Below, in pieces: positions 51,088 through 54,158 of a stretch of 64,000 nt of DNA. Position numbers and translations under genes: made by a program. The DNA lies in assembly GCA_913056455.1 (NCBI GenBank), contig CAJXMJ010000002.1, positions 372,001-436,000 on the forward strand, in the 5' to 3' direction. The number at the start of each line of letters is the position of its first letter. The first letter of the stretch is position 1. The DNA comes from an uncultured Fodinibius sp. Lineage in GTDB: Bacteria; Bacteroidota; Rhodothermia; Balneolales; Balneolaceae. Below the pieces are notes generated by a model, which did no database searches, was not told the origin of the DNA, and saw only the letters and a program-made list of their open reading frames with translations.

Positions 51088-51696
51088 TTAAAAAGTATTG
51101 CGACTCGCAAAAGCACGCCCCAACGTGGCTTCGTCAATAAATTCAAGTTCCGTTCCCATTGGTATGCCGTATGCAATGCGCGTTACCTTCACATCATCAA
51201 AAGGTTTGAGCAATTTGTTGATATAATAGGAGGTAGCTTCACCTTCCGAATCGGGATTGAGCGCTAAAATTACTTCGTCTATCTGTTCGTCATCCTCATT
51301 GATCCGCTGCATAAGCTGTTTAATACGAACATCATCGGGCCCAATATTATCAAGGGGAGAAATAACACCGCCGAGCACGTGATAACGGCCGCGAAACTCA
51401 TTGGTTTTTTCAATCAGAAATACATCCTGCGATTCTTCAACTACGCAAATTTGTCCAGTTTGACGTTTCGCATTTTGACATATAGAACAGGGATCACCGT
51501 CGCTAATTACGCCACAGGTAGAACAGCGCGTAATGGATTTTTTGAGATTAATTAGTGCCTCTGCCAAATTAATTACCGATTCGTCGTTCTGTTTAAGCAG
51601 AAACAAAGCAATCCGTCGCGCTGACTTTCGTCCCGTCCCCGGAAGCTTGGCCAATTGCTCAATAGCCTGCTCCAGTATTTCTGATGTTCCTTCCAT
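51088..51696 (-). CDS. recR: Recombination protein RecR
   Basis: Protein of 202 residues from MEGTSEILEQ at 51696; an upstream in-frame start (51726) lies in the REP-like repeat and adds residues not typical of RecR. The helix-hairpin-helix LPGTGRKSARR, the four-Cys zinc finger (Cys58, Cys61, Cys70, Cys73) and the Toprim region VVEESQDVFLIE are present. With RecO/RecF it loads RecA in gap repair. Third gene of dnaX-ybaB-recR. Confidence 0.96.
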   Translation of the reverse strand: MEGTSEILEQAIEQLAKLPGTGRKSARRIALFLLKQNDESVINLAEALINLKKSITRCSTCGVISDGDPCSICQNAKRQTGQICVVEESQDVFLIEKTNEFRGRYHVLGGVISPLDNIGPDDVRIKQLMQRINEDDEQIDEVILALNPDSEGEATSYYINKLLKPFDDVKVTRIAYGIPMGTELEFIDEATLGRAFASRNTF

Positions 51697-51720
51697 GTAG
51701 CAGTTATTTGTTAAGCTATA

Positions 51721-51785
51721 TGTCACCCTGAACTTGTTTCAGGGTCTGTAATCATGATAGATGCTGAACCAAGTTCAGCATGACA
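51721..51785. repeat. REP-like two-hairpin repeat inside the dnaX-ybaB-recR operon
   Basis: A 65-bp element begins TGTCA and ends TGACA. It contains two palindromes, CCCTGAacttgtTTCAGGG and TGCTGAACcaaGTTCAGCA. The class is common between genes in several phyla. Here it lies between the ybaB stop and the recR start. Confidence 0.8.
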
Positions 51786-51791
51786 CGGTAG

Positions 51792-52136
51792 TTAAAGTCC
51801 CAATTTGCTCAAATCCATACCTGGAATTCCACCGCCGGGCATAATATCTTTATAGGTTTCCTGCATGCGTTCCTGGGCCGCTTCTTCAGCTTTGTCAAGC
51901 GCCTTATTAACACCAGCTACCACCAGGTCTTCCATCATTTCGGCGTCATCGGGATCAATAACATCCTTATCCAGGGTAATGCTCAAAATTTGACGCTTGC
52001 CGTTGGCTTTTACTTTAACCATACCGCCACCGGCTTCAGCCTCAACTTCAAGCTTTGAAAGTTCTTGCTTTGCTTCTTCCACCTTTTCTTGAAGCTCGGA
52101 AAACTTCCCGAACATATTTGCCATATTCTGATTCAT
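51792..52136 (-). CDS. ybaB: YbaB/EbfC-family nucleoid-associated protein
   Basis: Protein of 114 residues; FGKFSELQEKVEEAKQELSK (helix) and the beta-hairpin GGGMVKVKANGKRQILSI match the family. It forms DNA-binding dimers. The usual position between dnaX and recR is conserved. An internal ATG at residue 5 (MANMFGK) is an alternative start. Confidence 0.95.
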   Translation of the reverse strand: MNQNMANMFGKFSELQEKVEEAKQELSKLEVEAEAGGGMVKVKANGKRQILSITLDKDVIDPDDAEMMEDLVVAGVNKALDKAEEAAQERMQETYKDIMPGGGIPGMDLSKLGL

Positions 52137-52217: not shown

Positions 52218-54158
52218 CTACTGATTTAAATTATAATCCAATTCAGCGCCAAAGAGTTCAACCAGCTTTTTGATCGTGGGATCACGTTCCTGGAGTTTTT
52301 TAAAACGCTCATAAGGACTCATTGAATCTTCTCCACTCTTTTCCTGCTTTTGAACAATACAGGTAAGGTTGAGAAAAGCGCCAATTTCATCCTCCAAAAG
52401 CTTACCAAGACGACGCCTGTTTTCATCCACTATCTTTTTAGCAAAATCATCATTAGCCCGTAACTTTAAGTCTCCGTTTTTTAATTCAACGGGATCTACG
52501 CGCTGCATCTGAAAATAAAGCATTTGCGGTACGTGGTGGCGAAGATTGTCTAAGTAATCATCCCAACAATCATTTATTTCTTGAAGCGAAACATCTTTGG
52601 GAGCCCGTTTTGTTGCTGTTTCACTTTGTGAGGCCTGTTGTGATTCGGTTGTCTCTTTTTTGTCCTCATTTTGAGGCTTGGGATTGCCCAACGACGAAGC
52701 TCCAAACAGGCTTTCAAACTCATCTTCTTCATCAGCCTGTTGTCCCTCTTCATTGACTGTGGGTTCACTTGTAGTGGGATGCTGCTCTTTTTGCGTTGGT
52801 TCTTTTGAGGATGTAGCCTGACCATTTGAGTCGGCTGGTGCTGACATGCTCTCAGTCGTGTCTAACGATTCTTCTGATAACTCTTTAGAATGAGGCTTTG
52901 CCTGCTGCTCTTGCGAAGCTTGTCGATTTGATTCAGAAGTCGACCCTGCTCCAGTTGATGCCGTACTTGGTTGCTGTTTATTCTCTTTGGAACCCTCATC
53001 ACCTGTATCGATTTCAGATGATGAAGACAGCTCAGAATTATTCAGCTTTTTTTTTACCTGCTCCAACTCAGCAAGCAATGTATTCAGCTTTTGGGTACGC
53101 TCCATGTGGATAAGCTTAAGGAGCGTTATCTCAAACTGAATTTTAGGCTGATGCGCTTCCTTAATTTTATACTGCGCCTCACTCACAATGTGAAGCATGC
53201 GCATCAGGTCATCCTCGGTAAAAACTTTAGATGATTCCCGATATCGCTTTTTAGTATCGGGAGATGCTTCGACTAAATGCATCTGGTCTGAGCTCTTTGC
53301 CACATAAAGATTTCGCAGGTGTTCGGTTAACCCAACCAAGTATTCCTGGATGTCATACCCTTCTTGCAGCAGATCGTTAATCAACTCAAGCCCGTGGCTG
53401 GCATCTTGTGCTTCCACCGCATCCATAAACTCGAACATGCGTTCAGTGCTCACCACATTGAGTGCTCGAAGCAGCTCATCGTGTTGAATATTATTGCCGC
53501 AAAAAGCAATAGCCTGATCCATCAGTCCGAGGGCATCCCGAAGCGCACCGTCGGCCTTCTTGGCAATTACATGAAGCGACTCCTCGTCAATATTGATGCC
53601 TTCATCCTCGGCTACATTGGCAAGGCGTTCAACGATTTGATCCACGCTAATGCGTTTAAAGTCAAACCGTTGCACACGGGATAAAATGGTCGGTAGAACC
53701 TTGTGCGGCTCCGTTGTAGCAAAAATGAAGATTACATGATCGGGGGGCTCTTCCAGTGTTTTCAGCAGGGCATTAAACGCCGACTTGCTGAGCATGTGAA
53801 CCTCATCGATGATATAGATCTTATAGCGGCCGTTTTGCGGAGGAATGCGAACACGTTCGCGCAGGTCGCGAATATCATCCACACTGTTATTTGAAGCCGC
53901 ATCGATCTCGACAACATTAAGCGTCTGATTCAACGATTCCCCGTCAACATCGCGATCGATATCATTCACCGTTCGTGCCAGCACACGCGCCATAGTGGTT
54001 TTCCCAACCCCTCGCGGCCCACAAAACATATACGCATGAGCCAATCGGCTTTTTTTGATGGCATTCTTCAGCGTACTGCTGACATGCTCCTGTGATACAA
54101 TATCATCAAAAGAAGTAGGGCGATAGGTACGTGTTAACGCGCGATAATTATCAGACAT
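52218..54158 (-). CDS. dnaX: DNA polymerase III subunits gamma and tau
   Basis: Clamp-loader ATPase of 646 residues. Walker A is GPRGVGKT (47-54), the Walker B region IYIIDEVHML follows near 116, and DAASNNSVDDIRDLRERV is the conserved stretch. Domains I-III end near residue 370; then comes a Ser/Thr/Gln/Glu-rich linker (about 372-540) and the tau C-terminal domain, which binds the polymerase and DnaB. Between residues 64 and 82, where other DnaX proteins carry four zinc cysteines, there is no cysteine. Codons 368-371 contain an A9 run followed by G, at which slippage would end the protein after about 373 residues (gamma form). First gene of dnaX-ybaB-recR. Confidence 0.97.
   Translation of the reverse strand: MSDNYRALTRTYRPTSFDDIVSQEHVSSTLKNAIKKSRLAHAYMFCGPRGVGKTTMARVLARTVNDIDRDVDGESLNQTLNVVEIDAASNNSVDDIRDLRERVRIPPQNGRYKIYIIDEVHMLSKSAFNALLKTLEEPPDHVIFIFATTEPHKVLPTILSRVQRFDFKRISVDQIVERLANVAEDEGINIDEESLHVIAKKADGALRDALGLMDQAIAFCGNNIQHDELLRALNVVSTERMFEFMDAVEAQDASHGLELINDLLQEGYDIQEYLVGLTEHLRNLYVAKSSDQMHLVEASPDTKKRYRESSKVFTEDDLMRMLHIVSEAQYKIKEAHQPKIQFEITLLKLIHMERTQKLNTLLAELEQVKKKLNNSELSSSSEIDTGDEGSKENKQQPSTASTGAGSTSESNRQASQEQQAKPHSKELSEESLDTTESMSAPADSNGQATSSKEPTQKEQHPTTSEPTVNEEGQQADEEDEFESLFGASSLGNPKPQNEDKKETTESQQASQSETATKRAPKDVSLQEINDCWDDYLDNLRHHVPQMLYFQMQRVDPVELKNGDLKLRANDDFAKKIVDENRRRLGKLLEDEIGAFLNLTCIVQKQEKSGEDSMSPYERFKKLQERDPTIKKLVELFGAELDYNLNQ
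52996..53055 (-). promoter_or_regulatory. A9 slippery site and downstream stem-loop in dnaX
   Basis: The minus strand reads CAGGTAAAAAAAAAGCTGAA; nine A (53047-53055) span codons 368-371. With one A more, or with -1 ribosomal shift, the reading is GCT GAA TAA; with one A less it is AGC TGA. A 10-bp stem with one G-U pair (TCATCATCTG with CAGGTGATGA, 52996-53024) lies 21 nt downstream. Confidence 0.6.

Follow-up and report, generated by a model that had tools for sequence, protein, structure and literature searches.

In Thermus, dnaX is reported to undergo transcriptional slippage at a run of nine A residues (A9) (PMC1088944, PMC5009743, PMC4320859). The E. coli gene makes gamma by a -1 ribosomal frameshift on the heptamer A_AAA_AAG, within a shorter run (A6G) that is followed by a stem and by a stop in the -1 frame. 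A third set of cases comes from GeneTack, which reported 17 split poly-A dnaX genes in 12 genera, nine with A10, and proposed slippage for them; its Chlorobi cases are Chloroherpeton, with A9, and two Chlorobium, with A8 and A7 (PMC3711429). A 2012 review holds that, beyond enterobacteria and Thermus, most bacteria keep no dnaX frameshift signature and may make no gamma (PMC3290774). Our literature search, which covered mostly titles and few subscription journals, found no paper on dnaX slippage in Bacteroidetes besides PMC3711429.

The window, that is, the whole 64-kb stretch of DNA analyzed here, covers positions 372001-436000 and belongs to a 3.28-Mb assembly. Its dnaX gene (52218..54158, minus strand) is a single open frame of 646 codons encoding full-length tau, with matches to Pfam DNA_pol3_delta2, DNAX_ATPase_lid, and DNA_pol3_gamma3 and to NCBIfam TIGR02397 (dnaX_nterm; 405 bits against a cut-off of 250). 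Domain III occupies residues 235-357 (DNA_pol3_gamma3). Shortly beyond it, nine T residues on the plus strand (53047..53055) form an A9 run in the coding strand of dnaX, at codons 368-371, which we propose as a slippage site. Codons 368-374 read GTA AAA AAA AAG CTG AAT AAT, with A_AAA_AAG in phase. If an A is added, or after a -1 ribosomal shift, the sequence is read as GCT GAA TAA, with the TAA at 53038..53040 (minus strand) and a predicted product of 373 residues. Loss of an A leads to AGC TGA, with the TGA at 53042..53044 (minus strand) and a predicted product of 371 residues. Codons 1-371 (53046..54158, minus strand), the last of which contains the end of the run, would be common to tau and to the proposed gamma. 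Downstream, the minimum free energy model places a 12-bp stem-loop 3' of the run (52994..53026, minus strand), and the 80 nt from the run onward fold with a z score of -3.62. Upstream lies a Shine-Dalgarno-like word, GGAG. The original prediction had described A9 followed by G at codons 368-371 and ending in A_AAA_AAG, a location at the end of the ATPase/collar region, proteins of about 371-373 residues after a shift in either direction, and a 10-bp stem 21 nt after the G. Our reading of the sequence agrees on each count: Pfam domain III ends at residue 357, just 5' of the run, and the 10-bp stem is the core of the 12-bp stem in our model.

After dnaX on the same strand come what are presumably a YbaB/EbfC-type gene (51792-52136) and a recR-like gene (51088-51726). 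dnaX, a YbaB/EbfC-type gene, and recR are a common bacterial gene order. We also noted, in the intergenic segment 51715-51790, the imperfect palindromes cctgaacttgtttcaggg and gctgaaccaagttcagca, which resemble an interspersed repeat.

Compared with the known systems, the window's gene shares with Thermus thermophilus dnaX a sense-strand A9, tau in frame 0, stops soon afterwards in both other frames, and a gamma-like short product, which is predicted here. The run is placed differently, lying seven-eighths of the way through the Thermus gene (PMC1088944), whereas here it is at codon 368 of 646, immediately beyond domain III. Thermus is reported to have two tRNA-Lys (PMC5009743), whereas a single one was found here in an incomplete tRNA list, and mRNA heterogeneity, reported for Thermus, is deduced here from the DNA. 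With E. coli the gene shares the in-phase A_AAA_AAG, a downstream stem, a stop in the -1 frame, and a predicted gamma product. However, the window has A9 rather than A6G, and neither the heptamer nor the stem nor the Shine-Dalgarno-like word is conserved in its relatives. The suggestion that the site has elements of both E. coli and Thermus thus holds for the window's own sequence but not for the relatives, which keep A9 and do not keep the heptamer's final G or the stem. The split genes reported by GeneTack (PMC3711429) likewise have an A-run at the gamma/tau boundary, and joining their two parts requires a frame change. The window's gene, in contrast, has one open frame rather than the split two-frame architecture, which within its family is found in L093 and L094. 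We regard the window's dnaX as a strongly supported, single-frame, Thermus-like member of these known cases.

Of 92 genomes from the same family (Balneolaceae), 87 yielded a dnaX gene. A run of at least nine A in the same phase lies within codons 355-385 in 79 of the 87 genes and in 19 of 21 genera. Within the wider stretch of codons 338-412, 82 of the 87 genes have such a run, the extra three (L071, L076, and L092) further downstream. The five family genes without one there all belong to genus g19 (L062, L063, L064, L065, and L086): L062 has A9 at about codon 411-412, and the other four have only A7-A8 in dnaX. Conservation in relatives had been set beforehand as one test that could refute the site, and the outcome (79/87) favors it; the run is not a product of chance.

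This conservation can be traced to individual bases. We aligned the 79 genes by codon columns, setting aside 8 sequences (genera g19 and g8). Among 362 degenerate columns up to codon 372, the third base is identical in all 79 genes only at codons 368, 369, and 370, and no other column reaches even 97% third-base identity. Lys 369 and Lys 370 are invariant. At codon 371 we found AAC in 49 genes, AAG in 19, and AAA in 11, such that residue 371 is always Asn or Lys, the two residues that have codons starting with AA. The E. coli heptamer A_AAA_AAG is consequently present in 19 of the 79 family members that have the site. Since both ends of the run are kept, the selected unit appears to be the nine-base run and not the heptamer. 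From each gene's own codon usage, taking the most lenient sequence per genus and treating genera as independent, the joint probability of this pattern is about 10^-22. These data strongly support selection on the A9 run throughout the family, which, together with the presence of both architectures within it, is what our analysis adds to the known cases.

Long A-runs are otherwise scarce in this genome. Apart from the dnaX run, the 64-kb window has no A or T run of nine and none longer, and runs of at least eight number just three. In the whole genome, on both strands, AAAAAAAAA matches 18 times, with two pairs overlapping to leave 16 runs, whereas Markov models trained on the window (orders 1-5) predict 176-555 matches. 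Nine-A runs are 10 to 30 times rarer in the genome than predicted by the Markov models, and selection against such runs has been reported for many bacteria (PMC1088944).

We then considered stops in the two other frames, using 77 of the 79 genes with the site (two split genes were omitted). In the extra-A frame, 76 of 77 relatives have a stop no more than 15 codons away, compared with a fraction of 0.69 when the downstream codons are shuffled synonymously. In the lost-A frame, the corresponding values are 75 of 77 and 0.43, and the average over genera is 0.92. At other positions in the linker, the stop rates are 0.66 and 0.42 for the extra-A and lost-A frames, respectively. Across our wider survey, 195 genes have a run and an identifiable tau frame, and in 183 of them each of the two other frames reaches a stop within 15 codons. 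E. coli dnaX also has a stop in the lost-A frame, at 14 codons, and for that reason the argument from stops is a statistical one, made over the family.

A further line of evidence comes from relatives in which the two parts of dnaX are encoded in different frames. We recognized the tau tail with an HMM built from 70 single-frame relatives. Our first survey contained 40 split genes, among them L093 and L094 of the window's family, with gamma in frame 0 and the tau tail in another frame: the extra-A frame in 39 and the lost-A frame in one (L137). In three further flagged genes (L082, L092, and L171), the stretch ends too early to show the tail. To these we added 20 genes of the order of L164 that were chosen because their frames are short; 13 of the 20 are split at runs of A9-A12, with tau in the extra-A frame in twelve and in the lost-A frame in one (L412, A12). 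Of the 53 split genes in all, 51 carry tau in the extra-A frame, and L137 and L412 carry it in the lost-A frame. Since the DNA of these 53 relatives is split at the A-run, a one-piece tau would need a frame change there. Conservation of the run and the existence of genes that need a frame change for a one-piece tau both lend good support to the original claim of a programmed frame change that yields a gamma-length protein. On a FastTree phylogeny of 298 gamma-part proteins, the architecture changes at least 17 times, a count that tree error inflates. A single genus can hold both states: among the matches listed for genus g134, L252 has A9 and is split, and L245, L247, L253, and L254 have A10 and are unsplit.

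Outside the family, a run of at least nine A within codons 338-412 is present in 7 of 34 genes from other families of the order and in 0 of 32 from other orders of the class (one of the 32 being too short to cover the whole stretch). It is present in 53 of 80 named genomes, whose titles are mostly Bacteroidota with a few labeled as other phyla, and in 56 of 68 genes from other classes of the phylum. This last sample is biased toward Chryseobacterium relatives because it consists of the best 68 of 385 genomes matching a Chryseobacterium query and is not random. Of the best-matching 29 loci from the order of L164, five have the run (two of the loci are counted elsewhere too), and in these loci the A-run is often absent. 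By contrast, codons 1-330 of dnaX contain no such run in any of 301 genes, and other 74-codon stretches of dnaX have at most 2 per group. In other groups, the run occurs in all three phases and hence encodes different peptides. The totals of 301 correspond to 300 distinct genes, L096 being the same contig as L072; we omitted L018 (the same gene as L040), L019 (a tail fragment of the L017 gene), and L002-L007 (other AAA+ genes). On the tree, which leaves out L095, L300, and L096 and carries no architecture state for L171, presence of the run changes at least 22 times, a figure again inflated by tree error. These changes fit one old origin with losses and repeated gain of the run equally well.

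We suggest that the A9 run in dnaX is probably a programmed transcriptional slippage site of the Thermus type. RNA polymerase would gain or drop A residues while copying the run, producing dnaX mRNAs in all three frames. Messages with nine A, or with nine plus or minus a multiple of three, would encode full-length tau; in the remaining messages a stop would come within about 15 codons, and their product would be gamma, which has the ATPase domains and domain III but lacks the tau tail. Both the length of the run and the early stops in the two other frames would then be under selection. Because a mixture of mRNAs would be made whichever frame the DNA encodes, that frame could drift, which would explain the relatives that encode gamma directly and reach tau only through the run. 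We infer from the sequences that RNA polymerase, and not the ribosome, does the slipping, and the same holds for the ratio of the products and for the use of gamma in the cell. We favor slippage because it would account together for the run's length, for stops in both frames, for a phase and a coded frame that are free to vary, and for the absence of any conserved stimulator.

The main competing explanation is a programmed -1 ribosomal frameshift on the run, either alone or together with slippage, using A_AAA_AAG in the window and A_AAA_AAA or A_AAA_AAC in relatives and ending at the TAA at 53038-53040 to give a 373-residue gamma. Several observations speak for it and are counted against slippage. 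First, 51 of the 53 split genes need a change in a direction that would equally result from a -1 ribosomal shift. Second, the window has the in-phase A_AAA_AAG, a stem of its own and, as in E. coli, one tRNA-Lys gene (anticodon UUU), the only one among 38 tRNA matches in a list that is incomplete (it lacks tRNA-Ile) from an assembly that is 95.87% complete. Third, L411, from another order, has A_AAA_AAG with only six A before a zero-frame TAG and resembles a pure heptamer case.

Other features of the family fit a ribosomal shift poorly. Only 19 of 79 members have the heptamer, yet all nine A are kept, and the A that precedes the heptamer, the third base of codon 368, is invariant though a -1 shift does not need it. 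The commonest form, A_AAA_AAC, is reported to be far less shift-prone in E. coli (PMC5009743). A -1 ribosomal shift needs only the stop in the extra-A frame, and the enrichment of stops in the lost-A frame would therefore serve no need under that route. No stimulator is conserved either. Over 77 relatives, we found no conserved stem in the 66 nt downstream of the run (mean z 0.00), in a weak test that gives the known E. coli stem a z score of only -0.50, and we dropped the stem as a family feature. Shine-Dalgarno-like words upstream of the run occur in 34 of 79 genes versus 28.8 expected from codon choice, which is no excess; a comparison of 34/77 with a 14% background had looked suggestive, but synonymous shuffling accounts for the difference. 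Ribosomes of Bacteroidia are also reported not to recognize Shine-Dalgarno sequences (PMC9976891), although the family studied here may differ. The phase in which the run stands does not argue against the ribosome, since any A9 includes an in-phase A_AAA_AAA. On balance, we consider a -1 ribosomal frameshift unlikely, and a mixture of slippage and ribosomal shifting is possible. The genes added from the order of L164 supply evidence for either mechanism and leave this balance unchanged.

Two further explanations fare much worse. That no programmed event takes place, the run being kept for its Lys-Lys peptide or by shared descent plus codon bias, would agree with the invariant Lys 369 and Lys 370 and with the non-independence of related sequences, but we find it very hard to reconcile with third-base invariance confined to codons 368-370, with the codon-usage probability even given its assumption of 19 independent genera, with the different peptides encoded by the run in its three phases elsewhere, and with the existence of split genes. 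Equally improbable to us is that gamma arises by proteolysis of tau, as reported for Caulobacter crescentus (PMC5009743), and that the run has another role, since the signal is at the nucleotide level and the frame in split genes changes exactly at the run.

Slippage at an A-run, our preferred reading for the family, might not be the only event at this domain boundary in the phylum. At about codon 366, L411 (G780) reads AGA AAA AAG TAG, and its tau tail is encoded in the -1 frame. We consider it a candidate for a heptamer of the E. coli type with its role inverted, the shift producing tau; with its heptamer before TAG and only six A, it would mean that the phylum uses ribosomal shifting, too, at this boundary. 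A nine-A run is absent from L418 and L428; at about codon 372 they have CAATCGCAGGAGCG in common just before a zero-frame TAA, with AGGAGCG shortly before that TAA, and the tail lies in the +1 frame. These two are candidates for a +1 ribosomal frameshift, at a site that we take to recall the +1 site of prfB. Meanwhile, L101, L153, and L164, from uncultured Bacteroidales or Bacteroidetes, have no A-run and carry a TAG after about codon 366, with the tau tail in the same frame; TAG ATT GCW AGG is common to all three. Their genomes each have a release factor 1 gene above the NCBIfam cut-off, and so TAG is probably a stop there. Stop readthrough is a candidate explanation, and a separate tail started at ATT is possible. 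Among the matches listed from a search of 247 genomes, there was no further in-frame TAG case, the one other match with a TAG being L411, of the frameshift type.

Extended to much of Bacteroidota, our reading would be that RNA polymerase makes the gamma/tau switch at runs of A9-A12, that the frame of the DNA is a matter of indifference and has repeatedly flipped, and that lineages without a run may use other recoding at the same boundary. We see the chances of this broader reading as even, and the other mechanisms in L411, L418, and L428 make it slightly less likely than it would otherwise be.

The signature, under strong selection throughout the family, reappears elsewhere in Bacteroidota, where it sits at the same domain boundary and is sometimes achieved by other means; it bears on the debated need for gamma. 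It also implies that a dnaX gene of about 365 residues is, in many of these bacteria, probably intact. Natural replicates of the switch come from run lengths between 9 and 12, from the three phases and the two architectures, and from lineages that no longer have the run.
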